From the NCBI GenBank assembly GCA_021202335.1, contig JAJQDE010000024.1, forward strand, positions 62,001 to 126,000: a stretch of 64,000 nucleotides of DNA, given 5' to 3'. The notes under the pieces are model-generated. The model was not told where the DNA came from. It did not search any database and was given only the letters and a program-made list of their open reading frames with translations. The position numbers were made by a program, and so were the translations under genes. Source of the stretch: Lachnospiraceae bacterium (GTDB lineage: Bacteria > Bacillota > Clostridia > Lachnospirales > Lachnospiraceae). Of the stretch, positions 3,999 to 45,396 are shown in pieces; the first letter of the stretch is position 1, and the number at the start of each line of letters is the position of its first letter.

Positions 3999-5678
3999 TT
4001 GAAGCGATTAAGACTTCCTATTGGGGTGGAGAATTTTGAGGAAATAAGGAAAGAGGAGTTGTATTATGTCGACAAAACAGGGTTGATTAAAGAGCTGTTT
4101 GAGAACTTCAGCAAGGCAACTCTTTTTACCCGTCCGAGACGTTTTGGGAAAAGCCTGAATATGAGTATGCTGAGGTGTTTTTTTGAAATCGGTACGGATA
4201 AGGGCATTTTTGACGGTTTGGCAATCTCAAGTGAGGAAAAGCTGTGTGCAAAGCATATGGGAAAGTATCCCGTAATATCCGTCAGCTTCAAGGATGTGGA
4301 AGGGGAAGATTTTGCGTCAGCCAAAGAGCAGCTGTGGATGGTCATATGGTATGAGGCGTGCAGGTTCACATGCCTTGAAACCAGTGAGAAGTTGAGCGAT
4401 GCGGAAAAAAAGGCTTATGACGGTCTGCTTTGCAAAACGGGAAATGTGGTTGAAGGACTGCGTTTGCTTTCAATGCTTCTCTGCAAGCATTACGGCAGTA
4501 AAACAGTTTTATTGATAGACGAGTATGATGTTCCGCTTGATAAGGCATACAAGAAAGGCTATTATGATGAGATGACCGGTCTGCTCCGACAGATGCTTCA
4601 TGCGGTCTTAAAAACAAACGATACGCTGCAGCTTGCCGTACTGACCGGGTGTCTGCGTATTTCAAGAGAAAGCATTTTTACCGGATTGAATAATTTAAAT
4701 GTGAATACCATTATTGACCCTCAATTCGACGAATGGTTTGGATTTACGGATGCGGAAGTCCGTTCCATGTTTGATTATTATGGATTAAATGACCACTATG
4801 CCAGAACAAAAGAGTGGTATGACGGATATCGTTTTGGGCAGGAAAATTTGTATTGCCCATGGGATGTGATTAATTGGGGCTATCATCTTTTAAGCGACTC
4901 TCAGGCGACACCTGGAAATTTTTGGGCAAATACAAGCAGCAACGATTTGATTATACGCCTGACAAAAGAAGCGGATGCGGATGCGAAGTCGGATATTGAG
5001 GCGCTTATTGCGGGAAAGACGGTATATAAATCTTTAATGCTTGACCTGACTTATCCTGAAATTGACGAGGAACCGGAATATTTGTGGAGCGTACTGTTTA
5101 CTACGGGATATCTGACTCAGCGCGGAATGAATGAGGATGGAGAATATGAGCTTGCTATTCCAAACAGGGAAATCTGCTCGATTTTTAAGGAAAAAATCGA
5201 CAAATGGTTTTCGGACAGGATAAAAAACGATACGGATGGACTTAAGGTATTTGCGGAAGCAATCATGAATGGTGATACGGCGGGAATTCAAGCATATCTG
5301 AATGACTGCATGGAAGACTCTATCAGCTTTCAGGACGGTGGAATGCTAAAGCTTCGCGAGAACTTTTATCACGGTATGCTTTTGGGGATGCTTAAAACCA
5401 ATAAATGCTGGCGTGTGCGTTCCAACCGCGAGGCGGGAGAGGGAAGATCCGATATTATTATAGAGCCTGTCCAAAAACGAAAAAACGACTATGCGGTTAT
5501 TATTGAGCTTAAGTATGCCAAAGAGGAAAAACAATTGGAGATAAAGGCTGTGGAAGCATTGGAACAGATAAAAAAGAGGCATTACGATGATTATTTTGGA
5601 GTAAATAGACCGTCAGACATCAAGCATTACGGTATCGCATTCTTCAAGAAGAAATGCAGGGTGATGCAGGGCAAATGA
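3999..5678 (+). CDS. AAA-ATPase-like / PD-(D/E)XK nuclease superfamily protein
   Basis: A 559-residue member of the family with an N-terminal AAA-ATPase-like domain and a C-terminal PDDEXK_9 domain, common in Clostridia and Bacteroidetes and of unknown function. Visible are the N-terminal ENFEEIRKEELYYVDKT signature, a P-loop-like RPRRFGKSLN (about residues 46-55), Walker B VLLIDEYD, and near the C-terminus GRSD followed by IIELKYA, the nuclease-type D...ExK pattern. A TTG start at 3999 is chosen because AGGGAGG (3982-3988) lies upstream and the first residues fit the family. Both flanks look decayed, suggesting insertion into the glycan cluster. A second family member lies at 45397. Confidence 0.85.
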   Translation: MKRLRLPIGVENFEEIRKEELYYVDKTGLIKELFENFSKATLFTRPRRFGKSLNMSMLRCFFEIGTDKGIFDGLAISSEEKLCAKHMGKYPVISVSFKDVEGEDFASAKEQLWMVIWYEACRFTCLETSEKLSDAEKKAYDGLLCKTGNVVEGLRLLSMLLCKHYGSKTVLLIDEYDVPLDKAYKKGYYDEMTGLLRQMLHAVLKTNDTLQLAVLTGCLRISRESIFTGLNNLNVNTIIDPQFDEWFGFTDAEVRSMFDYYGLNDHYARTKEWYDGYRFGQENLYCPWDVINWGYHLLSDSQATPGNFWANTSSNDLIIRLTKEADADAKSDIEALIAGKTVYKSLMLDLTYPEIDEEPEYLWSVLFTTGYLTQRGMNEDGEYELAIPNREICSIFKEKIDKWFSDRIKNDTDGLKVFAEAIMNGDTAGIQAYLNDCMEDSISFQDGGMLKLRENFYHGMLLGMLKTNKCWRVRSNREAGEGRSDIIIEPVQKRKNDYAVIIELKYAKEEKQLEIKAVEALEQIKKRHYDDYFGVNRPSDIKHYGIAFFKKKCRVMQGK

Positions 5679-5882
5679 GCAGATCGGTATAGCGTCAGAG
5701 CCGTAAGCGCCGGCGCTAACATATAATCCCGAAAACGCGTTGATGTACGCGCCGATGCTTGCATTTTATGCCGCAAGGGTTTATTATACCGAGGTAAGGA
5801 AAATGCCGGGCGGAGAGGGCTTTGCGTTCTTGCCGTTAATCAATGGCGGTACTTTTGGGAAGAATGAAATGGGGCGATTTAT
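5679..5882. other. Intergenic stretch with a possible gene remnant
   Basis: A plus-strand frame is open from about 5713 to a stop at 5895, overlapping the next gene start by 13 bases. From ATG 5743 it encodes about 50 residues (begins MYAPMLAFYAARVYY, contains GFAFLPLINGGTFGKNEMG). I recognise no family. It may be the 3' end of a gene that lost its front when the AAA-ATPase-like gene arrived, or a small protein. No promoter or terminator is evident. Confidence 0.35.
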
Positions 5883-7688
5883 ATGCAGGCTGTAATCCTG
5901 GCAGCGGGAATGGGAAAGCGGTTAAAGGAGCTGACCAGCGAGGCTGTAAAGTGTATGGTGAAGGTAAACGGCTCGGGCATGATAGACAGAATGCTGGGGT
6001 ATTTGGACAGGCTCGGGCTTTCGAGGATTGTTGTTGTGACAGGCTATGAGAGTAAAAAGCTTATGGCACATATTGACGCTCTTTCCGTATCGACTCCGAT
6101 AGAATATGTTGATAATGACATATATGACAGGACGAACAATATTTGGTCGCTGTGTCTTGCAAAGGATTATCTTCTGAAAGAGGACACGCTGCTTCTTGAG
6201 TCGGATCTTGTGTTTGAAGAGGCGGTTTTGAAAAAAATCATGGATAACCCTTATCCGAGTCTTGCGCTTGTCGACAAGTTTGAAAGCTGGATGGACGGTA
6301 CGGTGGTGACGCTTGACGAGCATGATGGCATAAAGGAATTTGTGTCAAAGCGGGAGTTTGATTTTGATAAGATTGACGAGTATTATAAGACGGTCAATAT
6401 CTATAAATTCAGCAGAGAGTTTTCAGAGCTTTATTATGTCCCGTTTTTGGAGGCGTATTGTAAGGCGATGGGGACAAACGAGTATTATGAGCAGGTTTTA
6501 AAGCTTATTGTATGCATGGACAATCCGCCGATAAAAGCAGTAAGGCTGGACGGCGAAAAATGGTATGAGATAGACGACGCACAGGATTTGGATATTGCGG
6601 AAACCGTTTTTTTGGAGGGCAGGTCAAAGCTTGAACGTTTACGGAAACGGCGCGGAGGCTATTGGCGTTATCCGAAGCTTTTGGATTATTGCAATCCCAC
6701 GAATCCCTTTTTCCCAAACAAAAGGCTTATGCATGAGCTGAAGTCGGGCTTTGAAACACTTGTTTGCCGACAGCCTTCGGGGATACAGGTTAATTCGCTT
6801 GTGGCGGCGAAAAGCTTTGGACTTAAAGAGGAGCAGACTGTCACGGGCAATGGCATTGATGAGCTTGTGAAAATTTTTATGCATATGTTTCCCGGAAAGC
6901 AGGGCGTGATTCATTCCTTCTTTGCCGGACATGACGACGCAGATACCGGGGGAGGGTGTTTGGAGTATATACCGGACAGTCCGGACTTTACATATACTGC
7001 GGATGAGATAATGAATTATTTTGAGGACAGGGAGATACAATCCCTGCTTCTTGCAAATCCTGATAAGCTTTCGGGAAATTACATTGGCAAGCCCGATTTG
7101 CTCCGCCTTGTAAAATGGGCGGCGGGGAAAGGAATAAGGCTTGTGATAGACGAGTCCTTTGCGGATTTTGCGGACGCGGCGGAGGATAAAACCCTTTTGG
7201 AGCAGGAGATTTTGAATCTCAATCCGCAGCTGCTGGTGGTAAAGAGCATATCGGATTCGTGCGGCGTGCCGGGGCTAAGGCTCGGAATTGCCGCGTCAGG
7301 GGACAGAAAGCTGATTGCGGAAATGAAAAAGGATGCGTCTATGTGGAACATAAATTCCCTTGCGGAGTTTTACATGCAGATTTTTGAGAAATATAAGGAT
7401 GCGTACCGCCGGGCGCTTTTGGAGTTTCAGGAAGTAAAGCGCAGCTTTATCGGAGAGCTTCAAAAAATTGAGTTTTTGCGCGTGCTTCCTTCACAGACGA
7501 ACTTTGTGCTGTGTAAGGTGCTTAAGCCGTACTCAAGCGGGGAGCTCGCGGTCAGACTGCTTGAGAGAAACATTTTGATAAAGGAGCTTTCGGACGATAT
7601 GGCTGTGAGCGATAAGCAGTATGTGAGGATTGCCGTCAGAAACGGGGACGATAACGAAAGGCTGCTTGACGCGCTGAAAAATCTGTAA
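5883..7688 (+). CDS. LicC/PntC-like cytidylyltransferase fused to an aminotransferase-like domain
   Basis: A 601-residue fusion. Residues 1-245 are a sugar-nucleotidyltransferase-like domain of the phosphocholine/aminoethylphosphonate cytidylyltransferase type: AVILAAGMGKRL (3-14), DRTNNIWSL (82-90), LLESDLVF (104-111), WYEIDDAQDL (227-236). Residues 258-601 are a fold-type-I aminotransferase domain of HisC/CobD type: NPTNP (271-275), DESF (423-426), GVPGLRLG (461-468). The lysine that should bind PLP is replaced by D458 (SISDSCGVPGLRLG), and the usual NPxNPSG reads NPDKLSG (392-398), so the domain is probably not a working transaminase. It would activate a phospho-alcohol or phosphonate as the CDP derivative for the next gene. 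GGGG at 5871-5874 supports ATG 5883. Confidence 0.82.
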   Translation: MQAVILAAGMGKRLKELTSEAVKCMVKVNGSGMIDRMLGYLDRLGLSRIVVVTGYESKKLMAHIDALSVSTPIEYVDNDIYDRTNNIWSLCLAKDYLLKEDTLLLESDLVFEEAVLKKIMDNPYPSLALVDKFESWMDGTVVTLDEHDGIKEFVSKREFDFDKIDEYYKTVNIYKFSREFSELYYVPFLEAYCKAMGTNEYYEQVLKLIVCMDNPPIKAVRLDGEKWYEIDDAQDLDIAETVFLEGRSKLERLRKRRGGYWRYPKLLDYCNPTNPFFPNKRLMHELKSGFETLVCRQPSGIQVNSLVAAKSFGLKEEQTVTGNGIDELVKIFMHMFPGKQGVIHSFFAGHDDADTGGGCLEYIPDSPDFTYTADEIMNYFEDREIQSLLLANPDKLSGNYIGKPDLLRLVKWAAGKGIRLVIDESFADFADAAEDKTLLEQEILNLNPQLLVVKSISDSCGVPGLRLGIAASGDRKLIAEMKKDASMWNINSLAEFYMQIFEKYKDAYRRALLEFQEVKRSFIGELQKIEFLRVLPSQTNFVLCKVLKPYSSGELAVRLLERNILIKELSDDMAVSDKQYVRIAVRNGDDNERLLDALKNL

Positions 7689-7714
7689 GGGACGATAGCA
7701 AATGGGGGTTGGCA

Positions 7715-9622
7715 ATGGATATTATATACAGCTTTTTTGAACTGGTTATGACAGGCTGTTGGATGCTTTGCAAAAATTATGGCTTGGCAATCATATTATT
7801 TACGTTTATCAGTAAGCTTGTGCTTTTGCCGGTATCCGTGTGGGTGCAAAAAAATTCAATTAAAATGGTCAGGATGCAGCCGGAACTGAATTTTATTACG
7901 GCAAAGTATTTTGGCGATAAGGATACGATTGCCGAAAAGCAGGCGGATGTTTATAAGAGAGATAAGTACCACCCGATGGCATCCATTTTCCCGCTTGTGA
8001 TACAGCTTATTCTGCTTATGTGTGTGATAGAGGTTATCAAAAGAGGGATGAGCAATCCTGCAATCGACATGGACTTTTTCGGGATTGATTTAAGCCTTGT
8101 GCCGAACGAGCAGGGGATAGGGCTGATAGGTTCTCCGATAATAGCGGGATTTTCGGCATGGCTTTTGTGCATGGCGCAAAATTCGCGCAATGTGCTGCAG
8201 TCAGAGCAGTCAAAGCTTAATCAGTATGGGCTTATGATATTTTCGGTAAGCTTATCGTTGTATTTGGGCTGGTTTGTATCCGTAGGAGTTGCGATTTACT
8301 GGACGGCAAGCAATACATTTGCAATCATACAGCTTTATATCATGAATTGGGTGATCAATCCTAAAAAATATGTGGATTATGAGGCGCTTGAGAAGAGCAA
8401 AAGGGAGCTTGAGGCTTTGGGGAACGTAGGCTCTCAAACGCGCAGGCGCTTTCACAATCCGGAGGCAAAAAGAGAGAGGCAGGACTACAAGAAATTCTTT
8501 TCGGTGGTGAACAAGCACCTTGTGTTCTATTCGGAAAGCAGCGGGTTTTATAAATATTATAAAGGGATTATAGAGTACCTTTTGGACAATACCAATCTGG
8601 TGATACATTACATAACAAGCGACCCGGATGACGCTGTTTTTGAGCTTGCAAAAGAGAAGCCCCGGATAAGACCATACTATATTGGAGAGAAAAGGCTTAT
8701 AACGCTCATGATGAAGCTGGAAGCGGATATGATGGTAATGACCATGCCGGATTTGGAGAACTTCCATATAAAGCGAAGCTATATTGATAAGGATATTGAG
8801 TACGTATATGTACCTCACGGAATGGACAGCCACAATCTCGCGATGAGAACAGGCTCGATTGACCATTATGACACGGTGTTCTGTGTTGGAAAGCATCAGA
8901 AGGAGGAAATTGAAAAGACGGAGGCGGTATATGGTCTTCCCAAAAAGAATCTGATTGAGTGGGGCTATTCTCTGCTGGATGAAATGTGTGCGGATTATGA
9001 GAAGTCGGATAAGACAGAGCATGATAAGAAACGTATTTTAATTGCGCCTTCCTGGCAGGAGGATAATATCGTGGATAGCTGCCTGGAGGAGATGCTTGAC
9101 AATTTAAAGGGGCAGGGGTATTATGTAACCGTGCGCCCGCACCCCCAGCATGTGCGCCACAGAGCTGAATTTATGGATGGCTTGAAGAAGCGATATGAAC
9201 AGGATGCGGATATTGAGATACAGACGGACTTTTCTTCCAACAGCACTGTGTTTGAGGCTGACCTTATGATTACTGACTGGTCAGGTATCGCGTATGAATA
9301 TGCGTATACGACGAAAAAGCCGGTACTGTTTATCAATACGCCGATGAAGGTGATGAATCCGGAGTATAAAAAGATTGATACGGTTCCGATTAATATTTTC
9401 CTGAGGGAAAAAATAGGATGCTCGCTCAATCCGGATGAGCTTAACAGGCTTTCGGAATGTGTGGAAATGCTCTTGAACAACCGTGATAAATATTACAGGA
9501 TAATAGAAGGCTTTGTGGACGAATATGTTTATAATCATGGAACAAGTGCGGAGGTAGGGGGAAAGTACATTGTTTCACGGATACAGGAAAAGATAGAGAA
9601 GAAAAAAAGAAAAGAGGACTGA
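7715..9622 (+). CDS. YidC/Oxa1-like membrane domain fused to CDP-glycerol glycerophosphotransferase (TagB/TagF-type)
   Basis: A 635-residue fusion. Residues 1-220 resemble the YidC/Oxa1 insertase core: LAIILFTFISKLVLLPVSV (24-42), then MQPEL and several membrane helices. K34 stands where YidC normally has its groove arginine. Residues 260-625 are a TagB/TagF-type transferase with PHGMD (H368), APSWQEDN, RPHPQ (H476) and ITDWSGIAYEYA (D521), which moves a phospho-alcohol from a CDP donor to a glycan or teichoic-type acceptor. The preceding cytidylyltransferase is the likely donor supplier. ATG 7715 is chosen (GGGGG at 7704-7708). I infer that the YidC-like part anchors the transferase to the membrane; insertase activity is unproven. 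Confidence 0.85.
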   Translation: MDIIYSFFELVMTGCWMLCKNYGLAIILFTFISKLVLLPVSVWVQKNSIKMVRMQPELNFITAKYFGDKDTIAEKQADVYKRDKYHPMASIFPLVIQLILLMCVIEVIKRGMSNPAIDMDFFGIDLSLVPNEQGIGLIGSPIIAGFSAWLLCMAQNSRNVLQSEQSKLNQYGLMIFSVSLSLYLGWFVSVGVAIYWTASNTFAIIQLYIMNWVINPKKYVDYEALEKSKRELEALGNVGSQTRRRFHNPEAKRERQDYKKFFSVVNKHLVFYSESSGFYKYYKGIIEYLLDNTNLVIHYITSDPDDAVFELAKEKPRIRPYYIGEKRLITLMMKLEADMMVMTMPDLENFHIKRSYIDKDIEYVYVPHGMDSHNLAMRTGSIDHYDTVFCVGKHQKEEIEKTEAVYGLPKKNLIEWGYSLLDEMCADYEKSDKTEHDKKRILIAPSWQEDNIVDSCLEEMLDNLKGQGYYVTVRPHPQHVRHRAEFMDGLKKRYEQDADIEIQTDFSSNSTVFEADLMITDWSGIAYEYAYTTKKPVLFINTPMKVMNPEYKKIDTVPINIFLREKIGCSLNPDELNRLSECVEMLLNNRDKYYRIIEGFVDEYVYNHGTSAEVGGKYIVSRIQEKIEKKKRKED

Positions 9623-9624
9623 CG

Positions 9625-9885
9625 ATGAAAAAAAGAATTTTAAGAGTATTTGGAGTTGTGTATCTGTGCCTGTGCGGAATGTTTTTATTCGGCGCAAATT
9701 CGCAGGCGTATATCGATCCTTCGGCGGTGACGTATGCGATTCAGGCAATCGCGGGTATTGTGATAGCAATCGGCGCGGCTGTGGGAATTTATTTCAGAAG
9801 AGCTAAGAAGAAGCTGAATGATAAGCTCGGCATTGACGAGAACAAAAATAAGGAAGTGGAATCGGACGATATTATAATAAAGTGA
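9625..9885 (+). CDS. Small membrane protein with signal peptide (AYIDPS type)
   Basis: An 86-residue protein: signal peptide (basic MKKR, hydrophobic core, likely cleavage after NSQA at about 28), then YIDPSAVTYAIQ, one transmembrane helix (about 38-56), and a basic then acidic cytoplasmic tail. Small proteins with an AYIDPG/S motif right after the signal peptide often accompany envelope glycan genes; their function is unknown. It begins 2 bp after the YidC-TagF fusion, so the three genes form one transcription unit, and it may be an accessory subunit of that transferase. A terminator follows. Confidence 0.75.
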   Translation: MKKRILRVFGVVYLCLCGMFLFGANSQAYIDPSAVTYAIQAIAGIVIAIGAAVGIYFRRAKKKLNDKLGIDENKNKEVESDDIIIK

Positions 9886-9919: not shown

Positions 9920-9942
9920 AATGTGCCAAAGGCACATTTTTT
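9920..9942. terminator. Bidirectional intrinsic terminator
   Basis: Perfect 8-bp inverted repeat AATGTGCC / GGCACATT with a 3-base loop, followed by a T run on the plus strand. It separates the plus-strand module ending at 9885 from the converging minus-strand lepB, whose stop codon lies in the T run. A second AGAATGTGCC copy sits just upstream at 9902-9911. Confidence 0.8.
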
Positions 9943-10426
9943 AATTGCCGGTGTTGTCGACGGGGAGGCGGTTCGGAATCACGCGGCCGATAATGTTTTC
10001 GCGGCTGACGCAGCCTATCTCTTCGTATCTGCTGTCCCGGCTCCGGGCAGAGTTGTCCCCCATCACAAAGAATTGGCTGTCGCCGACTAAAAGCTCATTG
10101 GAGGCAGTGCCGCCAAAATCCGTGTATTGGCACACATACGGACTCTGAACGCCGTCTACAAGCACGTTTCCGTCTGAAATAAGAACAGTCTGCCCTGGAG
10201 CTGCGATGATGCGCTTTACCATAGTGCAGTCCAAAGAGGGACAGTAAAAGACAACGACATCTCCGCATTGAAAGTCCGTACTGCGCTTGTCGATGAGAGT
10301 GAGCTGCATATTTTTGTAGGTTGGATACATGGATTCCCCCTGAATGAGATTCAACTGATACAGATTTTGAGAAACATACATGGTAAGAAAAAGTATAAAT
10401 AGTAAAAAAATCAAATTTTTTTTCAT
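9941..10426 (-). CDS. lepB: Signal peptidase I
   Basis: Membrane serine protease of 161 residues that removes signal peptides from exported proteins. One N-terminal helix (4-21) is followed by the catalytic serine box GESMYPT (30-36), the lysine box VKRIIA, and the C-terminal GDNSARSRDSR box. The length fits a Gram-positive type I enzyme with one membrane anchor. It is the only plus/minus switch in the window and diverges from the membrane protein gene at 10573. Its placement among glycan genes may be chance. Confidence 0.93.
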   Translation of the reverse strand: MKKNLIFLLFILFLTMYVSQNLYQLNLIQGESMYPTYKNMQLTLIDKRSTDFQCGDVVVFYCPSLDCTMVKRIIAAPGQTVLISDGNVLVDGVQSPYVCQYTDFGGTASNELLVGDSQFFVMGDNSARSRDSRYEEIGCVSRENIIGRVIPNRLPVDNTGN

Positions 10427-10572
10427 TGGGAGCCTTTGTTCTTTTTTTTATATTTAATAATTACATAATAGCATAAAATTGGTAAATGTAGTATAATATA
10501 TGCGGACATTATAAGTCAAGCGCCTTTAGGCAGGGCGCGCGGCGTAATTTTACTTTTTTCGAGGCGTTTTGA
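10427..10572. promoter_or_regulatory. Divergent intergenic promoter region
   Basis: AT-rich 146-bp region between divergent genes, so it should hold promoters for both. On the plus strand a perfect TATAAT lies at 10492-10497, with only a poor -35 match 17 bp upstream. No confident minus-strand promoter was resolved. GAGG at 10561-10564 is the ribosome site for the plus-strand gene. Confidence 0.5.
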
Positions 10573-12144
10573 ATGGGCATAAAAGGGTTTGGCATAAAAA
10601 ATCAGGACAATATTTTGACAGCTTTGGTATATCTGCTGTGTATCGTGACGGCTGTTTGGGTAGTTGAAACAAAGGACGATTACGAAACAGATGAGATTTT
10701 TACGTACGGACTTTCCAACCATCAGTATGCAGACACTACTGAGATGCGGGTTGTGGAAGGGCAAAAATACGAGCCTGCCGGGACGGCATGGTATGATTAT
10801 ATGGTTGTGCAGCCCGGGGAAGGCTTTGACTATGCGAATGTATGGAAAAAACAGGCGGAGGATGTGCATCCGGTTTTGTATTACGCGATTGTCCATACGA
10901 TATCGTCATTTTTCCCGGGGCAGTTCAGCAGATGGTTTGCGGGAATTGTGAACCTGATATTTTTTGTCATGACATTATATGTGGTAAGAAAAATAGTATA
11001 TGAGCTTACGAGGGACAATCGGGCGGTTTTGGCGGCAAGCGTTTGCTTTTCGCTGTGCGGCGGAAATGTTGTGGCCTTGGGACTGTTTAGGATGTATATA
11101 ATGGCAATGTTTTTTGTGACGCTTCTGACGTGGCTGCTGATGCGTTTTTATAAAGAAGGGGCGGATAAAAGGCTGTGCCTGCAGCTTGGAATTGCTTCCG
11201 TGCTCGGAGCGCTGACGCACTATTATGTAACAGTATATCTTGTGCTTGCCTGTGTGGTCTGCGGTTTTTTGCTGCCGGCAAAAAAGAAGCGGAGGGCTTT
11301 TGCAAGGCTTGCGGGCTGTATGGCTGCTGCGGCGGCGGGGGCGGTTCTTATTTTCCCTGCGATGTTAAGGCATTTTTTTGTGTCAGACAGGGGAAAGCAG
11401 TCGGTAGAGGGGCTTGTTGAAAACTCAATACAGACCTATGTCGACGACTTGCACGATTATGGGGAATTTATTAATGATTACATATTCGGCGGCATTCTTT
11501 GGCTGATATTGCTTGCGCTTGCGGCGCTGCTTATGATGAAAAGAATACGCCTTCCGGAACAAAGGCTTCCCGTGGAGGAGGGGCTGATACTTATAGTGCC
11601 TTCAATTCTTTATTTTTTGCTGATTGCAAGGATTGCGGTGTATAATACGGACAGATACATACAACCTATATATGGAGTTGTGGCGGCTGCGGGGATATGC
11701 GGGTTATATTTGATTATACATTCCCTGACGCAAGGGAGAATGGCAAACCTGCTTATGCTTGCGGCAGTTGTGGGAATGGTTGTCAGCAGTTGGTTTAACG
11801 CAAAGCTGATAAGCTTGGGAGATGATGCAGCAGACGGTGAAGAACCCATAGATTACGCGGAATATGACGCGTTGTATGTGTATCATGATGAGGAGCTGTG
11901 GAGAATACAGGCGAGCTTTTGGAAGCTTAAGGACTGCAAGAGCATTACCTTTATTTCCGACGACGGTTTTGACCTGCTGTATGAGAGCGGCATTTTGGAG
12001 AATGAGGAGCTGCTGGTGATCATACAGGACAGAATAGACGATCAGGATTTTTACCTTGCGAGCGTGACAGGATTGGGACCAAAGCTGGAAACCTATGAGG
12101 AAGCAGACCACGATGGGTATGCAACTGTCTATTATTTGAATTAA
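10573..12144 (+). CDS. GT-C-like membrane glycosyltransferase (ArnT/PMT-like)
   Basis: A 523-residue polytopic membrane protein with about 10-11 helices. The large first external loop carries TDEIFTYGLSN, the acidic pair typical of GT-C enzymes that use polyprenyl-phosphate sugars. EDVHPVLYYAIVHTISSFFP follows as the second loop motif, resembling ArnT-like family 39 proteins. The acceptor is probably a cell-envelope glycan or protein on the outer face. It starts a long same-strand run of similar proteins. Sugar specificity is unknown. Confidence 0.75.
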   Translation: MGIKGFGIKNQDNILTALVYLLCIVTAVWVVETKDDYETDEIFTYGLSNHQYADTTEMRVVEGQKYEPAGTAWYDYMVVQPGEGFDYANVWKKQAEDVHPVLYYAIVHTISSFFPGQFSRWFAGIVNLIFFVMTLYVVRKIVYELTRDNRAVLAASVCFSLCGGNVVALGLFRMYIMAMFFVTLLTWLLMRFYKEGADKRLCLQLGIASVLGALTHYYVTVYLVLACVVCGFLLPAKKKRRAFARLAGCMAAAAAGAVLIFPAMLRHFFVSDRGKQSVEGLVENSIQTYVDDLHDYGEFINDYIFGGILWLILLALAALLMMKRIRLPEQRLPVEEGLILIVPSILYFLLIARIAVYNTDRYIQPIYGVVAAAGICGLYLIIHSLTQGRMANLLMLAAVVGMVVSSWFNAKLISLGDDAADGEEPIDYAEYDALYVYHDEELWRIQASFWKLKDCKSITFISDDGFDLLYESGILENEELLVIIQDRIDDQDFYLASVTGLGPKLETYEEADHDGYATVYYLN

Positions 12145-12157
12145 AGCGAGGGCTTCT

Positions 12158-14008
12158 ATGAAAAAGTGCTTAAATGAGCTTATTGCAAATGCGGCACCAA
12201 CTGCTGTTGCATTTGTTGCCGCAATGATTACAACGGTGGCGCTGTTTGCGGATGTGGCGTCCACGGGGAATATTTCGATGGCGTTAAACGGCGACGGAAT
12301 ACCGCAGCTTGCTGCCCTTGCGGCGTTTTTTGGCGTGTACCGCAGCAGGACTGTCAAAGAAAAGCTTTTGGCTGAAACGGGCAGGAGGGAAAAGCTTTGC
12401 GGCGCGATTACCGCGTTTTGCTTCACCGGCTTTATGATTATCGGAAAGGCGCAGATTGCTGAGCCGGACTTGAAATACGGGTTGTTTGCCGTGCTGCTGT
12501 TTTTGGGATATATGCCGTTTTTTTATGTGGCAGTATTGTTTTTGATGTATCAGATTGAGGCTTTTTCAAAAAAGCATACCGGATGCAGGGCGGGCGCTCT
12601 GACGCAGTGGCTTTTTGAAAAGCATGTGACGGCAGGTGCGATGCTTGCGGTCATTATCTGCCGCCTGCCGTATTTGGCAGCGTTTTATCCGTGCTCCATG
12701 TCGTGGGACGGAGGCGCGCAGATAGCCTGTTTTTGGGGAACAGAGGCATTTACCGACCACCACCCTCCGCTGATAAGCTTTCTGTACGGGGCGATAGCCC
12801 GGTATTCACAGGAATGGGGAGTTCCAAACATTGGAATGTTTATGATTCCCGTTATCCAAACCCTGCTTTCGGCATTTGCCGTGGCAATGGTGTGCGGCTT
12901 TTATAAGCATTTCGGATTGCCCTACTGGATAAGATGGGCGAGCCTTGTCTACTATGCGGCGTTTACCGTGTGGTGTATCTTTGACTGTACGGTAATAAAG
13001 GACACGCTGTATTATCCGCTTACGCTTTTGTTTGCGCTGCAGCTGCTGTACTGCGTGATGGACGGAGATTATTTTTGGGGCAGGAAAAGCAATCCTGCGA
13101 TGCTGCTGATATCCGGAATATTGATGATGCAGACGAGAAATAATGGCGTGTTTGTACTGCTGTTTTCCATTCCGTTTGCGTTATGCTTTGTGAAGGGAAA
13201 AAGAATCCGTCTGTTTGCGATAGCGGCGGCTATGCTGCTTGCCAATGCGGCGCTGAACAACGGTCTGTATCCCGCGCTTGGCGTAACGCTTCTTGAAGCA
13301 AAGGAGGACACCTACTGCATTATGTTTCAGCAGACCGCGAAGTATGGTCAGGATTACCCTGAGGATGTGACCGAAGAGGAAAGAGAGCTGTTAGATACCG
13401 TTTTTGATTATGATGAGATGGTGGAGGTTTACAATCCGCAGCTTGCAGATTGGGTGAAGAATTGCCTTCGGCTGTCAGAGGCAAGCTCCGCAGACCATAC
13501 AAACAGCGAGTTTGCCGCACTTAAGAGCGAGTATTTCAAGGTATGGCTTGCACAGCTTATGCGCCACCCTATGTCTTATGTGAAAACCTTCCTTGAATGT
13601 TCATACGGTTATTATTACCCGGAGGCAAGGCCTTATAAGGAGGGAACCGGCTTTTATGAGGCGGAGCGGAACATGCTGACAAGCAGTATGCATGCGTACA
13701 GGCAGATAAAGCAGCTTGCGCCCGCAAGGTTTGTGCTGCAGCAGCTTAGCAAGATAGAGTATCTGCCGGGGGTCGGGCTCTTGTACCGGTGCGGTTTTTA
13801 TACATGGTGCGTGCTGTTTGCGGCGATGTATCTGATTGCAAAAAGGCGTTACTGCCTTTTGACGGCGGCCGTGCCGCCTGCGGTCAATATTTTGGTGTGC
13901 CTGATTTCGCCCGTTAATACTTGTATTCGCTATGCGATGCCGACAATGTGCATGGTTCCCGTGCTGCTTGGACTTTTGTGGTATCGGGAGGCTTGGAGAA
14001 AGGAATGA
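12158..14008 (+). CDS. Polytopic membrane protein (DUF6020-like)
   Basis: A 616-residue protein with about 12 hydrophobic helices and an external loop reading YPCSMSWDGGAQI then DHHPPLISFLYG. This matches what I recall of DUF6020 membrane proteins, which look like GT-C transferases: an acidic loop, then an HHP motif. It probably transfers a sugar outside the membrane, but no member function is established to my knowledge. The C-terminal third carries an extracytoplasmic segment before the last helices. It lies 13 bp after the preceding gene and overlaps the next by ATGA. Confidence 0.65.
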   Translation: MKKCLNELIANAAPTAVAFVAAMITTVALFADVASTGNISMALNGDGIPQLAALAAFFGVYRSRTVKEKLLAETGRREKLCGAITAFCFTGFMIIGKAQIAEPDLKYGLFAVLLFLGYMPFFYVAVLFLMYQIEAFSKKHTGCRAGALTQWLFEKHVTAGAMLAVIICRLPYLAAFYPCSMSWDGGAQIACFWGTEAFTDHHPPLISFLYGAIARYSQEWGVPNIGMFMIPVIQTLLSAFAVAMVCGFYKHFGLPYWIRWASLVYYAAFTVWCIFDCTVIKDTLYYPLTLLFALQLLYCVMDGDYFWGRKSNPAMLLISGILMMQTRNNGVFVLLFSIPFALCFVKGKRIRLFAIAAAMLLANAALNNGLYPALGVTLLEAKEDTYCIMFQQTAKYGQDYPEDVTEEERELLDTVFDYDEMVEVYNPQLADWVKNCLRLSEASSADHTNSEFAALKSEYFKVWLAQLMRHPMSYVKTFLECSYGYYYPEARPYKEGTGFYEAERNMLTSSMHAYRQIKQLAPARFVLQQLSKIEYLPGVGLLYRCGFYTWCVLFAAMYLIAKRRYCLLTAAVPPAVNILVCLISPVNTCIRYAMPTMCMVPVLLGLLWYREAWRKE

Positions 14009-15753
14009 CAAAAAAACAAGGTGCAGGGATAAATTTCAGAGCTTTTAACAGTGATGTAGCTGTCGGCGTCGCGGCAATGCTTTTGGGAGCCGTATGCTTT
14101 ATTGCGGTCTATGGAGTCTGCGTGCTTGATCCGACATACGACGACTGGCTTTTGGGGCGCGGCGACCTGACGCAGCATTATTTGGGCTGGCGCTTTTTCT
14201 GCGAGAGCGAATGGACTTTTCCGATAGGGCTGACAAACCGGCTGGCTTATCCCGACGACAGCTCGGTCATCTTTACGGATTCCATTCCGCTGTTTGCGGT
14301 GTTTTTTAAGCTTTTATCGCCCATTCTGCCTGATACCTTCCAGTATTTTGGATGGTGGGGGCTTGTGTGCTTTATGCTGCAGGGGCTGTTTGCCGCAAAA
14401 ATATTAACTGCGCTGGACGTAAAAGGAAGCCGCGCGCTTGCGGGCAGTATTTTGTTTATACTTTCGCCCGTTGTTATTGAGAAGATGTTCCGGCACACGG
14501 CGTTAGGGGGGCATTGGATTATCCTTGCGGCAATTTATCTTTTTGTGCGGCACAGGGAGCTTTACGGGAATGTCAGAAAGACATCGCTGTATTTTGGGCT
14601 TATCGGGGCGTATGTCGGCTCGGTGCATCTGTATCTGCTTCCGATGTGCGGCGCGTTTGTGTGCGGCTTTGTGCTGAGCAGCCTGCTCTGCAGCCTGTTC
14701 TGCAGTATGCTCTGTGCCCGGCGGGGCGAAAAGCCGGGCAGGGCGCCGGTCTTTGGAATAAGGGGAAAGCTTTGCATGCTGAAATATGTGCTTCCCGGGA
14801 TATCGTATGCGGTGTGCCTGCTTGCGTGTACCTGGCTGCTCGGCGGTTTTTCGACGAGGGCGGAAGCAGGGAGCAGCGATTTGGGGCAGTTCAGCTTTAA
14901 CCTGAACGGATTTTTCAATGCCAAAGGTTACTCCCGCTTTCTTTCACCGCTTAATACCTATTATGACGGGCAGTATGAGGGGTTTGCTTATTTGGGGCTT
15001 GGTGTGCTTTGCCTTTTTGTGCCGTCGCTGGTTTATATGATAAGGAGTCTTTACGGGAAACATGCCGGAAAGTGCAAAAAATCGGACGGGACGGGCGTGA
15101 TTTACGGGGTGGTATATGCGCTTATGTGCGCAGGTCTGATTGTCCTTGCCGCGTCGCCGGAGGTGACGTTTGGCGACCGGCTGCTTTTTGTGCTGACGGA
15201 CAGCAGCACGCTCACGCATTATTGGAGCATCTTCCGCTCTACCGGGAGAATGGTCTGGCCTGTGTGCTATTTAATTTATATTGGCGTGATTGTGTGCAGC
15301 GACAGGCTTTTTAGGGGAAGGCGCGCGGCGACGGCTCTGCTTGTGCTGTGCGCGGCTGTCCAAATCTTCGACATAAGCGGCAAGCTTAAATCGCAGAGGA
15401 ATACCTTTGCGGAGAAAAAGACCTACGAGTCGCCGCTGCAGAGCGAGGTTTGGCAGCAGGCAGCGGAAAACGATGCCTTGGAGCATGTCGTGTGGGTATC
15501 GCACAATATTGACAACAACGGGATTTTGCATATTGCCAAATTTGCCCTTGACAATGGGCTTACGATGAATAATTATTACTTTGCAAGGGGCATAAATGTG
15601 AATGAGAATACGAAAAAGAGCCTTGAGCACCCGTCAGAGGATTGTCTGTACATTTTCAGAAGCGACGAAACGGAGGGTATTGACGGGTACGGCCTGAATC
15701 TGTATGAGGCGGACGGATATATTTTGGGAACAGTTGAGGCGCTTGGGAATTAG
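14005..15753 (+). CDS. Polytopic membrane protein (DUF6311-like)
   Basis: A 582-residue protein with about 11-12 helices. After helix one come DLTQHYLGWRFF, a WTFPIGL segment and SSVIFTDSIPLFAVFFK, the pattern I associate with DUF6311/YfhO-like membrane proteins of the GT-C superfamily. A role in transferring lipid-carried sugars is inferred. The start is ATG 14005, overlapping the previous stop as ATGA with GGAGAAAGG upstream; the 28 codons upstream in the same frame belong to the previous gene. Its stop codon lies at the edge of a 24-base element also found at 59267. Confidence 0.65.
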   Translation: MTKKQGAGINFRAFNSDVAVGVAAMLLGAVCFIAVYGVCVLDPTYDDWLLGRGDLTQHYLGWRFFCESEWTFPIGLTNRLAYPDDSSVIFTDSIPLFAVFFKLLSPILPDTFQYFGWWGLVCFMLQGLFAAKILTALDVKGSRALAGSILFILSPVVIEKMFRHTALGGHWIILAAIYLFVRHRELYGNVRKTSLYFGLIGAYVGSVHLYLLPMCGAFVCGFVLSSLLCSLFCSMLCARRGEKPGRAPVFGIRGKLCMLKYVLPGISYAVCLLACTWLLGGFSTRAEAGSSDLGQFSFNLNGFFNAKGYSRFLSPLNTYYDGQYEGFAYLGLGVLCLFVPSLVYMIRSLYGKHAGKCKKSDGTGVIYGVVYALMCAGLIVLAASPEVTFGDRLLFVLTDSSTLTHYWSIFRSTGRMVWPVCYLIYIGVIVCSDRLFRGRRAATALLVLCAAVQIFDISGKLKSQRNTFAEKKTYESPLQSEVWQQAAENDALEHVVWVSHNIDNNGILHIAKFALDNGLTMNNYYFARGINVNENTKKSLEHPSEDCLYIFRSDETEGIDGYGLNLYEADGYILGTVEALGN

Positions 15754-27543: not shown

Positions 27544-30500
27544 ATGAAGAGGAAAAAAACATTTGGACTGTACGGCACGAATAAGAGAAAAACAGCCGGC
27601 AAAAGGGAAAGACGGCAGGCTGAACAATATACGGACGATATGTATGAGGACGATACGTATGATGAGTCGGGTCAGGAGTACGCGGAAGAGGAGTACACTG
27701 ATGAAGAAGAGTATACTGAGGAAGAGTACGCAGAAGAAGAGTACACTGAGGAAGAGTACGCAGAAGAAGAGTACGATGCGGAAGAATACGACGATGATGA
27801 GTACATAGTCGAGTACCAAAGCGGGGAAGAAGCCGGTCAGGAGTATGCAGAAGAAGAGTATGAATCGGAAGAGTACGCAGAGGAAGAGTACGCAGATGAA
27901 GAAGAGTATACTGAGGAAGAGTACGCTGATGAAGAAGAGTACGATGAGGACAGCTTCGACACTGCCTACCATGCTGAAAACAGGGAGGCTGACAGCGATG
28001 CTTTTGCCGGCGGCTGCGAGGACGATGATTATGAGGACGATGAGGTCGTTTTTGGCACTGATTTTGCCGGCAGGGCGAAGGAGCTGCTTTGCCGCATAAA
28101 GGAGCGCGCGGCGGACATGACCGCCTTTGACGCCGTTATTGCGGCGACGGGCGTGGTGCTGGTCGTGGCGGTAATCGTCATTTTGAGCATGTTTATAGGA
28201 AACAGGCGCGTAAGCGGTCAGATAGAGGCAATAGCGCCTATCGGGACGGAGCTTGCGGGGATAGGAATAGCGGGCGGCGACGGTCTTACCGCACTGACGG
28301 ACGCGGCTCTGCTTGGCAGCCTTGCCGGCGAGGCGGAGAGCGAAACTCAGACCTCGGTCGAGGGCGGCAAGGTCAGCGTAAGCTTTGTGTCGGTGGAAAA
28401 GGATTTAAAGATACGCTTTACCAACGCGGAAAGCGGCGAGCTTATTACCGGCACGGAATTTGAGGTAACGCTTGAAAATACCTCGACCGGAAACGAGCTG
28501 GTTCTGACAGACGACGATACGGACGGGATTATTTATGCCGACAATATGAAGGCGGGCGTGTATGACGCGGTGATAACGTCGACTGAGCAATACACCTTTC
28601 CGACGACGGCTCAGCAGGTCACGGTAAAGGATAAGGTTGAGTATGTGGTGATCAATGTTGAGGATGAGGTTGTGAGCGAGAAGCAGATTGACGTTTCGGC
28701 AGAGGATACGCAGCAGAATAACGCGGCAGCCGAGGAGGTTGCCCTTACCGATACAGTGGAGTGGGTGGAGTCGACCAAGACTGCCGTCAGCGGCACGGAG
28801 AGCTACCTGCTTGTGGATAAAAGCACAATCCCTGACCCCTCTGCCACTTCAAGGGCGGCGGCGAGGATGCTCTTTGACACAATCAATGTGACGCTTGATA
28901 AGTCAAGCCTTTCCCTGAAGGTGGGGGCGACGGCAAGCCTTACGGGCACATCATTTAGCAACAGCACGGACGGAAACGTGGAATATCAGTATACTGCGGA
29001 GTGGAAGTCCTCGGACGATTCCGTTGCAACAGTCAGCGGCGGCACCGTGACCGCAAAGGCGGCAGGCACTGCGACTGTGACGTATACGGTTACGCGGACG
29101 ACAATCACTACCACTTATGAGCCGGAGGAGGCGCCAGTAGAGGTTGTGGAGATAGACCTTGACACGTACAGCAGTCTGTCGTCAACAGAGAAAGCAAAAT
29201 GTACGCCGATTACGGACGATGCGGATCAGATTATCGCATATGAATACACAAAAACAATCGAGCCGGAGAAAAAGACGAGCAAAACGACTGATACTGCAAG
29301 CGCGTCATGCGCGGTTACGGTTGAGGCGGCAAAGCTTTCCTCGGCAAGCCTTACGCTGACTGCAAGCGCGGCAAGCTGTCAGGTTGGCTCGACAATCACG
29401 GTCGCGCCGTCAAAGCTGGTCTACACAAAGGACGACAACAGCACGGAAACGATTACGGACAGCTTTCCCACGGTTACATGGTCAAGCAGCGCAAAGTCGG
29501 TGGCGACCGTAAGCTCCGATGGTATAGTGACGGGCGTTAAGGCGGGAACCGCCGTGATTACGGGACAGATAAAGGGCATCAAGGGGGCCGACGGCAAGGA
29601 GCTTGACATCAGCGCGCAGGTCAGCATTACCGTCACTGCGGCAAGCAGCGTGACAGTAGCCCTTGACCGGACGCAGAATGTCTATCTTTCCGTGGGCGGA
29701 ACCACGACGCTTACCGCCACGGTAAGCAATTATGCAAGCGATTCGGGAGTTACATGGTCAAGCAGCGATACATCGGTGGCGACCGTAAGCTCATCGGGCG
29801 TTGTGACAGGTCAGGCGGCGGGAAGCGCTACGATTACCGCTTCGTCAAACGAAACGGACTCCGACGGCAATGCGGCAACTGCCTCATGCGTGGTGACGGT
29901 AAATTCAAGCGCGACGAGCGATACCACCACGAAGCTTAAGGACAGCAACGGAAATCAGGTTTACGTCAAGGACAGCGACGGGAATTATGTTGAGGCTGTT
30001 TATGCCGATTATTACACGGAATCGGAATTTTATATTAAATCTGCGGCACAATATAAATATACGGGCTGGCAGACCATAGACGGAAAGACGTATTACTACG
30101 ATAAAAACGGAATCGCAGTGACCGGCACGCAGGTAATTCAGGGCGTGACCTACAACTTCGGCTCGGACGGGGCGATTGCGACGACGGTAAACGGCTCTAC
30201 CTTCGGCATCGATGTGTCAAGGCATAACGGCACAATTAACTGGACGGCGGTAAAAGCTTCGGGCGTTGATTATGTGATTATCCGCTGCGGATACAGAGGC
30301 TCCTCAACGGGCGCGCTCATTCAGGACCAGAATTTCACTACGAATATCAAGGGCGCGACGGCGGCAGGGCTTAAGGTCGGCATTTACGTGTTCTCGCAGG
30401 CGATTAACGAGGTTGAAGCGGTCAAGGAGGCGTCGCTTGCAGTGTCATGTGCGCAGGGCTACAATCTGACCTATCCGATTTTCATTGACACGGAGTCGAG

Positions 30501-30789
30501 CGGCGGAAGGGCTGACAGCATAGACAAGGCTACGCGCACGGCAGTGGTGAACGCGTTCTGTCAGACCGTTCAGAGCGCAGGCTACACGGCGGGAATTTAC
30601 GCGTCAAAGACATGGTTTGAGGATAAGCTCAACATGAGCTCTGTCGGCAACTACCGCATATGGCTTGCACAGTACGCGGCAGCGCCCACCTACAAGGGCA
30701 AATACGACATGTGGCAGTATTCAAGCAAGGGTACGATCAGCGGAATCAGCGGAAATGTTGATTTGAACCTCAGTTACATGGGATATTAA
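27544..30789 (+). CDS. Membrane-anchored GH25 lysozyme with BIG2 domains and acidic EEY repeats
   Basis: A 1081-residue wall hydrolase. A basic start is followed by a cytoplasmic acidic region dominated by EEYxEEEY repeats (about 45-135), one membrane helix (about 196-218), a SpaA-like beta domain (about 280-375), and two or three BIG2 Ig-like domains (about 450-810, each ending near SVATVS..G.VTG..AG.A.IT). A YKYTGWQTIDGKTYYYD wall-binding-type repeat and a C-terminal GH25 muramidase (885-1081) complete it. The catalytic acids are visible as GIDVS (D890) and FIDTE (D982, E984). A protein of this shape would cut peptidoglycan from the membrane outward. A shorter paralogue lies at 32952. Confidence 0.92.
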   Translation: MKRKKTFGLYGTNKRKTAGKRERRQAEQYTDDMYEDDTYDESGQEYAEEEYTDEEEYTEEEYAEEEYTEEEYAEEEYDAEEYDDDEYIVEYQSGEEAGQEYAEEEYESEEYAEEEYADEEEYTEEEYADEEEYDEDSFDTAYHAENREADSDAFAGGCEDDDYEDDEVVFGTDFAGRAKELLCRIKERAADMTAFDAVIAATGVVLVVAVIVILSMFIGNRRVSGQIEAIAPIGTELAGIGIAGGDGLTALTDAALLGSLAGEAESETQTSVEGGKVSVSFVSVEKDLKIRFTNAESGELITGTEFEVTLENTSTGNELVLTDDDTDGIIYADNMKAGVYDAVITSTEQYTFPTTAQQVTVKDKVEYVVINVEDEVVSEKQIDVSAEDTQQNNAAAEEVALTDTVEWVESTKTAVSGTESYLLVDKSTIPDPSATSRAAARMLFDTINVTLDKSSLSLKVGATASLTGTSFSNSTDGNVEYQYTAEWKSSDDSVATVSGGTVTAKAAGTATVTYTVTRTTITTTYEPEEAPVEVVEIDLDTYSSLSSTEKAKCTPITDDADQIIAYEYTKTIEPEKKTSKTTDTASASCAVTVEAAKLSSASLTLTASAASCQVGSTITVAPSKLVYTKDDNSTETITDSFPTVTWSSSAKSVATVSSDGIVTGVKAGTAVITGQIKGIKGADGKELDISAQVSITVTAASSVTVALDRTQNVYLSVGGTTTLTATVSNYASDSGVTWSSSDTSVATVSSSGVVTGQAAGSATITASSNETDSDGNAATASCVVTVNSSATSDTTTKLKDSNGNQVYVKDSDGNYVEAVYADYYTESEFYIKSAAQYKYTGWQTIDGKTYYYDKNGIAVTGTQVIQGVTYNFGSDGAIATTVNGSTFGIDVSRHNGTINWTAVKASGVDYVIIRCGYRGSSTGALIQDQNFTTNIKGATAAGLKVGIYVFSQAINEVEAVKEASLAVSCAQGYNLTYPIFIDTESSGGRADSIDKATRTAVVNAFCQTVQSAGYTAGIYASKTWFEDKLNMSSVGNYRIWLAQYAAAPTYKGKYDMWQYSSKGTISGISGNVDLNLSYMGY
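27670..27945 (+). repeat. Tandem degenerate repeat encoding EEY units
   Basis: Repeated gaagagtacrcngaagaag-like units of 12-15 bases inside the GH25 gene, encoding (D/E)EEY(T/A/D)EEEY. The repeats could expand or shrink by slippage or recombination. Confidence 0.8.
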
Positions 30790-45257: not shown

Positions 45258-45396
45258 CGGGTGTAAGATATCGGCATTTCTTAAAAAAAAGAGCCGACCG
45301 GTTGGAAATTTGGGATAACAGCTTGACATTTATGGTGGTTTTTGCCAGACTTTAAGAAACGGATGTGTTCTTAAGTAATTGAATGGGAGGCAGACT

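Follow-up and report, generated by a model that had tools for sequence, protein, structure and literature searches.

A probable surface-tailoring locus with an exchangeable head-group supply in Lachnospiraceae, and a putative phosphoserine-to-CDP-ethanolamine fusion that lacks its predicted catalytic lysine in one genome

When a cytidylyltransferase gene is directly followed by the gene for a membrane transferase, what is being activated, and where might it go? We examined such a locus in a Lachnospiraceae bacterium (NCBI GenBank assembly GCA_021202335.1, contig JAJQDE010000024.1, positions 62,001 to 126,000 of the forward strand; this whole 64,000-nucleotide stretch is referred to as the window). 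Three co-oriented open reading frames, separated by 20 and 2 bases, lie on the + strand. The initial annotation had named a LicC/PntC-like cytidylyltransferase (NT), a YidC–TagF fusion, and an 86-residue AYIDPS protein at 5883–9885, in one unit ending at a terminator, and this was confirmed by the frames, Pfam, solved relatives, and a hairpin with its U-run. It had not noticed that gene 1 ends in a CobD-like domain of the pyridoxal 5′-phosphate (PLP) type, making up its C-terminal half, from which the catalytic lysine is missing. From sequence comparison, we lean slightly towards reading the locus as a surface-tailoring unit with exchangeable head-group supply, in which the NT–CobD fusion family would turn phosphoserine into cytidine diphosphate (CDP)-ethanolamine. 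The layout is as follows.

5883–7688, + strand: gene 1, NT–CobD fusion, 601 amino acids
7709–9622, + strand: frame of gene 2, YidC–TagF fusion (Pfam), 637 amino acids, with ATG 7715 as probable start (7715..9622)
9625–9885, + strand: gene 3, AYIDPS small membrane protein, 86 amino acids
9902..9942, + strand: intrinsic terminator hairpin and U-run, by folding energy

ATG 7715 is the position where relatives of gene 2 begin. The hairpin 3′ of gene 3 (−23.1 kcal/mol, z −4.9, U's after the stem) was not called by a consensus terminator scanner, and matches in the promoter and terminator scans were no commoner than in shuffled sequence. Genes 1–3 form a conserved unit: the neighbourhood proposed from the window recurs in the same order at L103–L106, on contigs of the same-genus genomes G201, G216, G212, and G224. 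This counters the refuting condition given in the initial annotation, that homologues of genes 1–3 would never be found side by side elsewhere.

The relatives of gene 2 carry the evidence for exchange. Full-length YidC–TagF matches were found in 27 of 38 genomes of the genus and 21 of 397 genomes of the family, and all of them except the window's own make up a set of 47 loci, found by YidC–TagF alone, to which genome G319 gives three. Scored within 8 kb of YidC–TagF, 28 loci hold phosphoenolpyruvate (PEP) mutase, six the NT–CobD fusion, four a choline kinase, one a class-V aminotransferase with an NT, and eight none of these (three of the eight are cut by contig ends; L204, where the contig stops within an NT and nothing else was seen, was counted as none). 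No locus holds two of PEP mutase, NT–CobD, and choline kinase (0/47). Of the 47 loci, 40 have the AYIDPS protein within 500 bp and 34 have a sulfatase-like gene no more than 8 kb away. Ppd and PhnW are both present at 24 of the 28 PEP-mutase loci, referred to here as aminoethylphosphonate (AEP) loci, whereas the available sequence around L228, L233, L240, and L242 lacks at least one of the two. When labels were checked on samples, phosphonopyruvate decarboxylase exceeded its cut-off in 3/3 cases, AEP transaminase in 2/3, and PEP mutase in 1/1; Pfam Choline_kinase did so at all four choline-kinase loci.

Some loci lie at or beyond the edge of this set. At L085 (genome G051, at a contig end), YidC–TagF and AYIDPS stand beside the class V aminotransferase and NT, possibly a fourth supply; G051 gave no PEP mutase match, and the PhnW-like gene, the one sample to fall short of the AEP transaminase cut-off (141.9 bits; 360.8 required), was rejected as such an enzyme. 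Two partial YidC–TagF matches, on contig C37 of G234 (L245) and contig C49 of G223 (L246), are outside the 47; at L246, 8 kb of sequence on one flank is free of any supply module and the other flank is cut. L137 and L174 are also outside, having been found through the fusion.

The transferases themselves do not sort by supply. The closest same-genus transferases from AEP loci (G208, G230, G204, and G214) are 79, 80, 79, and 73% identical to the window YidC–TagF, and those from fusion loci (G224, G201, G212, and G216) are 78, 79, 76, and 76% identical. On a quick YidC–TagF tree the two kinds intermix, with at least four changes between fusion and other states, and six when three states are used. 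PEP mutase was present in 4/4 same-genus AEP genomes and absent from 9/9 fusion genomes searched, the window's (99% complete) included; the nine contain G049, with a reshuffled transferase, and G219, with a split fusion, and G234 lay outside that search. Across genomes PEP mutase is enriched with YidC–TagF (5/8 versus 16/192, p 4e-4) and not with the fusion (3/21 versus 18/179). Collectively, the module counts, the intermixed tree, and the PEP mutase distribution show that the transferase unit is constant while the supply is exchanged locus by locus. Replacement of gene 1 elsewhere by the AEP set, or by a choline kinase–cytidylyltransferase protein, backs the proposal in the initial annotation that activation by cytidine triphosphate (CTP) is followed by transfer at the membrane. 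If one transferase lineage serves both cytidine monophosphate (CMP)-AEP and the fusion product, that product should resemble CMP-AEP.

What would the NT half accept? The domain is intact in the window.

5883..6617, + strand: NT domain, residues 1–245, LicC/PntC-like, active-site residues intact (Pfam NTP_transferase/NTP_transf_3)

Its closest solved relatives by sequence are LicC (1jyk, E 8e-12) and PntC (6pd1, E 1e-10). Gene 1 has the LicC-like NT fold, glycine-rich motif, and catalytic lysine that characterize PntC, and the window copy keeps K23, E106, S107, D108, and W136. It is changed at 2 of 81 near-invariant positions, defined by at least 95% agreement among the other fusions and numbering 81 in each half. 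Glu at position 106 was found in 101/101 fusions and in 25/25 NTs from AEP loci (25 of the 28 were compared), and in none of four choline-kinase-fused NTs or two NTs beside free choline kinases. Three further NTs from choline-kinase loci were aligned, one with Glu106 (L238, second NT) and two without; a fourth could not be aligned. Glu106 aligns with Glu104 of Treponema denticola PntC (Tde-PntC), which its authors place at the AEP amine (PMC6697681), and LicC has Asp at the same site. We predict that the likeliest kind of substrate is a small primary-amine phosphate, with phosphoethanolamine favored.

Single-sequence phmmer searches of the window (E 1e-3) did not find LicA, LicB, PepM, Ppd, PhnW, LicD, TagD, or sulfatase, and the earlier remark that the window has no choline kinase, PEP mutase, or CDP-glycerol synthase thus holds as far as tested (LicA, PepM, and TagD negative). 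This bears on activation to CDP-choline, as in the Lic pathway of Streptococcus pneumoniae, where a phospho-amine is likewise activated by CTP for surface decoration. LicC is narrowly the best solved NT relative, which fits. However, the choline kinase partner of that pathway is missing, as the best choline/ethanolamine kinase match in the window genome, at 21.7 bits, stays below the cut-off of 29; E106 replaces the residues seen in choline-kinase-fused NTs, just as it differs from the LicC Asp; and the PLP half would have no role in choline use. We therefore consider CDP-choline very improbable here.

The second half of gene 1 suggests how a primary-amine phosphate might be made.

6648..7688, + strand: CobD/SMUL_1544-like PLP domain, residues 256–601, predicted catalytically dead here (Pfam Aminotran_1_2, E 6e-22)

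By structure comparison, its closest solved folds are SMUL_1544 (6oux) and CobD (1lc5), which differ from it in being stand-alone cobamide enzymes and in the catalytic lysine that the window copy lacks. Against the CobD model TIGR01140 it scores 119.2 bits, below the curated cut-off of 290.55. That the domain is instead an aminotransferase (HisC-like) or some other PLP enzyme is distinctly unlikely, given that its best fold matches are decarboxylases. In the fusion family, we propose, the PLP half would decarboxylate L-phosphoserine to phosphoethanolamine, and the NT half would join this with CTP to give CDP-ethanolamine, which is one oxygen away from the CMP-AEP of the sister loci and mimics it as an ester. 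SerC was matched in 8/8 genomes, over cut-off in seven, so phosphoserine should be available. The PLP half might alternatively use L-phosphothreonine, as in cobamide synthesis, leading to CDP-1-amino-2-propanol. We rate this as unlikely, because the sister supply yields the two-carbon AEP, better mimicked by ethanolamine, and because E106 fits a small primary amine, though a methyl branch would still be allowed.

Could gene 1 instead serve a phosphonate pathway, making CMP-AEP or, like FrbH, CMP-3-aminopropylphosphonate? Gene 1 is like FrbH in carrying an NT and a CobD-like PLP domain in one chain, FrbH being compared by its published description. FrbH of the FR-900098 pathway performs both cytidylyl transfer and PLP decarboxylation of 2-amino-4-phosphonobutyrate in one protein (PMC6697681, PMC8007912). 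This combination of the same two activities speaks for phosphonate chemistry, as do four related loci that hold both the fusion and PEP mutase and genome G234, which has both. We infer that 2-amino-4-phosphonobutyrate is an isostere of phosphoserine. FrbH differs in that its substrate is a phosphonate and its pathway relies on PEP mutase. An FrbH-like enzyme would also need an active PLP domain with a Schiff-base lysine, a residue present in most fusions and replaced by D458 in the window. PntC-AEPT of T. denticola (6pd1, 6pd2) has an NT followed by a PLP domain and the same Glu at position 106 (PMC6697681). It is the top Foldseek match to gene 1 over the whole length, at a template-modeling (TM) score of 0.35 and a root-mean-square deviation of 22, so that the domains agree in order, not in arrangement. 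By sequence, gene 1 matches only the NT half of PntC-AEPT, whose PLP half belongs to the class V AEP transaminases and whose pathway is based on PEP mutase. As no PEP mutase was found in the window genome or the eight other fusion genomes searched, we give a phosphonate pathway almost no credence; the phosphonate substrate raised in the initial annotation is likewise unsupported in the window genome, and phosphoserine remains our preferred starting point for the family.

For the window itself, the difficulty lies in the residues of the PLP site.

7254..7256, + strand: codon 458, Asp, aligned to CobD K216; Lys in 98/101 fusions
7065..7067, + strand: codon 395, Lys; Asn in 100/101 fusions

We take CobD K216 to be the PLP Schiff-base lysine, and Asn at position 395 to be the PLP O3′ ligand in the CobD-like fold. 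In addition, Tyr350, a Tyr in 100/101 fusions, is His in the window. The window PLP half differs at 17/81 near-invariant positions, the Schiff-base lysine and PLP asparagine among them. Same-genus L103–L106 show 0 such changes in the PLP half and 1–2 in the NT half; for the other fusions taken together, the median is 0 in the PLP half and 1 in the NT half. (The truncated L043, 505 amino acids, was omitted from the near-invariant count and from the set labeled A1, which has 20/21 fusions, and was kept in the 101; the set labeled A2 used 30/81 sequences.) Judged by sequence, the window PLP half is dead and its cytidylyltransferase intact. Without the lysine, the fusion here would be limited to activating a phospho-amine from another source, and the fully self-contained pathway that had been suggested is not supported in the window genome.

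One explanation is decay, with the window fusion as the relic of a pathway that no longer works in the species. The 17 changed positions fit this, and so does the sulfatase-like gene that is missing at the matching place of L103. Yet the frame is open and codon-constrained: compared with L103, the window PLP half differs by 0.24/0.20/0.54 at the three codon positions with no stop, and its NG86 dN/dS is 0.12 at a dS of 2.2. The cytidylyltransferase is near-perfect, YidC–TagF is 78% identical to that of L103, and a related sulfatase sits on contig C65 of the window genome. Nor is the window alone. L126 (Blautia, 9941–11815) has Gln for the PLP lysine, with 10 PLP-half and 0 NT changes; L160 (Akkermansia, 336–2177) has Glu, with 15 and 0; and L244 (same-genus G228, 5538–7373) has Glu while keeping the Asn. 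All three retain the acidic motif of the NT, which suggests that use of the NT half alone has arisen repeatedly, and we regard decay as rather unlikely. The plain reading is that the decarboxylase has apparently been lost and the protein retained, open and constrained. LicD adjoins the fusion at L126 and L244. Decay may not fully explain why the PLP lysine was repeatedly exchanged for an acidic or amide residue. Acceleration of the PLP half only is not supported, as three-point branch lengths in the window are ~2.4× (NT) and ~2.8× (PLP half) those of L103.

In the window genome, the NT would then activate a phospho-amine made elsewhere. A stand-alone CobD-like gene lies on contig C45, beside a gene read as a cobamide gene, and aminopropanol phosphate supplied in trans is one possibility. 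The LicD encoded on contig C48 may also draw on the activated amine.

The downstream genes indicate how the head group might reach the surface.

7778..8347, + strand: YidC/Oxa1 (60KD_IMP) domain of gene 2, residues 24–213 (Pfam E 4e-30)
8507..9337, + strand: TagF-type Glyphos_transf domain of gene 2, residues 267–543, with HG, RPHP, and TDWSG motifs (Pfam E 2e-14)

The YidC C-terminal core TIGR03592 scores 96.9 bits (cut-off 84.3) and Glyphos_transf (PF04464) 53.8 bits (cut-off 22.1). Of the 47 YidC–TagF relatives, 44 carry both RPHP and [ST]D[WFY]S[GS], and 27 carry HG. Gene 2 shares this domain and these two motifs with TagF-type CDP-glycerol glycerophosphotransferases and differs from them in its fusion to YidC; its relatives' neighbors supply AEP, choline phosphate, or the NT–CobD product, arguing against a CDP-glycerol or CDP-ribitol donor. 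The predicted structure of YidC–TagF (predicted local distance difference test 55) was not used. Gene 3 has a signal-like start, YIDPS, and a single hydrophobic stretch (topology by eye), with only a marginal Phage_Coat_B match in Pfam. YIDPS is present in 38/44 small-protein members, which were chosen by the pattern Y[IVL]D[PA]. YIDP(G/S) occurs either free-standing or as the membrane start of TagF, and the fusion partner of YidC is TagF in one group but a sulfatase-like domain in a second; G049 shows the three domains reshuffled, with AYIDPG–TagF fused and YidC joined to a sulfatase-like domain. A preprint reports that Escherichia coli YidC scrambles lipids in vitro (PMC10491306). Together with the alternative domain fusions, this suggests the YidC domain as a route across the membrane. 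In our model, the constant part (YidC–TagF, AYIDPS, and usually a nearby sulfatase-like transferase) would attach a CMP-activated small amine to an envelope molecule: the head group would be put on a lipid inside the cell, may cross via the YidC domain, and may be moved outside to its final acceptor by the sulfatase-like enzyme.

The NT–CobD fusion is found well beyond this unit. In the bacterial family it occurs at full or near-full length in 21/200 genomes, the window's included, the others sharing 37–61% identity. Named public genomes hold at least 579 relatives (579 of 595 matched stretches); the 80 listed are all near full length and come from Lachnospiraceae, other Bacillota, Bacteroidales, Akkermansia, Actinomycetaceae, and Treponemataceae, many of them metagenome-assembled. 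In flanks that reached 10 kb at most and were often shorter, YidC was found near 15 of these 80 fusions, PEP mutase near 4, and LicA near 3. Six same-genus genomes besides the window's hold a full-length fusion, and four of the six keep the exact window gene order. Of the other genomes in the genus, G234 shows on contig C37 the order TagF (incomplete, as the contig stops there), AYIDPS, fusion; in G228 the fusion adjoins LicD and the genome lacks YidC–TagF; and G219 has the fusion split over two contigs. Among the 20 other family fusion loci, YidC–TagF is near in G086 only.

Several points weigh against our preferred reading. For every member of the family, activity, product, and acceptor are predictions, and the preference for phosphoserine over phosphothreonine would rest only on the likeness to AEP. 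Without K458, the full reaction cannot run in the window genome as drawn. Synonymous sites are near saturation in the window–L103 comparison, so constraint is argued from the codon-position pattern and the open frame. TagF is near the fusion in only 18 of the 80 listed loci (16, plus L103 and L106, whose YidC–TagF frame touches the fusion end and was at first filtered out). LicD is near 27 of the 80, within 100 bp on the same strand in nine, and the window genome has its LicD elsewhere; other transferases may thus be the usual users of the fusion product. At genome level, LicD occurs in 17/21 fusion genomes and 112/179 others (p 0.15), which says little, leaving adjacency as the informative part. 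Exclusivity of supply is by locus and not by genome, since G234 has the fusion at L245 and PEP mutase at a second YidC–TagF (L224, AEP set). At L137, a single YidC–TagF has both the fusion and a choline-kinase gene in its vicinity, and the four loci with fusion and PEP mutase together are YidC-sulfatase loci.

Other arrangements were seen around the fusion and in the window. At L135, L140, L153, and L157, the fusion lies inside clusters of AYIDPG–TagF, tandem YidC–sulfatase fusions, and a CTP_transf–PEP mutase protein. At L049, L050, and L052, divergent fusions adjoin a haloacid dehalogenase (HAD) phosphatase (by Pfam in L052, by eye in the others), with a second NTP transferase in L049 and L052 that is fused to a HAD domain in L052. 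At L102 (8447–10231), a CobD-like gene and an NT gene are adjacent and unfused, possibly the two components of the NT–CobD fusion. Where two membrane-protein genes are directly adjacent in the window (12158–15753), a 731-amino-acid sulfatase-like gene splits them in L103 (14654–20327); it is a relative of this gene that sits on contig C65. Predicted AAA-ATPase/PDDEXK_9-type genes (Pfam) lie among polysaccharide genes at 3999–5678 and 45379–47013, with further copies by eye among the same genome's polysaccharide genes in L202 and L198. At 27544–30789, the same polysaccharide region encodes a lysozyme-like protein of the GH25 type that carries Ig-like domains together with a choline-binding repeat (Choline_bind_3).

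A search of the open-access literature found nothing joining phosphoserine decarboxylation with CDP-ethanolamine in bacteria, CDP-ethanolamine with LicD, or YidC with phosphonate biosynthesis, and nothing on an NT–threonine-phosphate decarboxylase fusion. To our knowledge, which gut anaerobes display phosphoethanolamine, phosphonates, or choline, and by which enzymes, is mostly unknown. The supply cassette beside YidC–TagF would offer a readable rule predicting the surface substituent, and the candidate de novo CDP-ethanolamine route is widespread in public genomes. In four cases, the window included, the PLP lysine is lost and the activating half keeps its motif. As a bolder extrapolation, possible rather than probable, NT–CobD fusions of Bacillota, Bacteroidota, Akkermansia, Actinomycetota, and Treponemataceae may constitute an unrecognized route from phosphoserine to CDP-ethanolamine that needs no ethanolamine kinase or import. 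It would feed a general envelope-decorating machine, with YidC as scramblase or lipid gate for the TagF product, that displays phosphocholine, AEP, or phosphoethanolamine according to the cassette.

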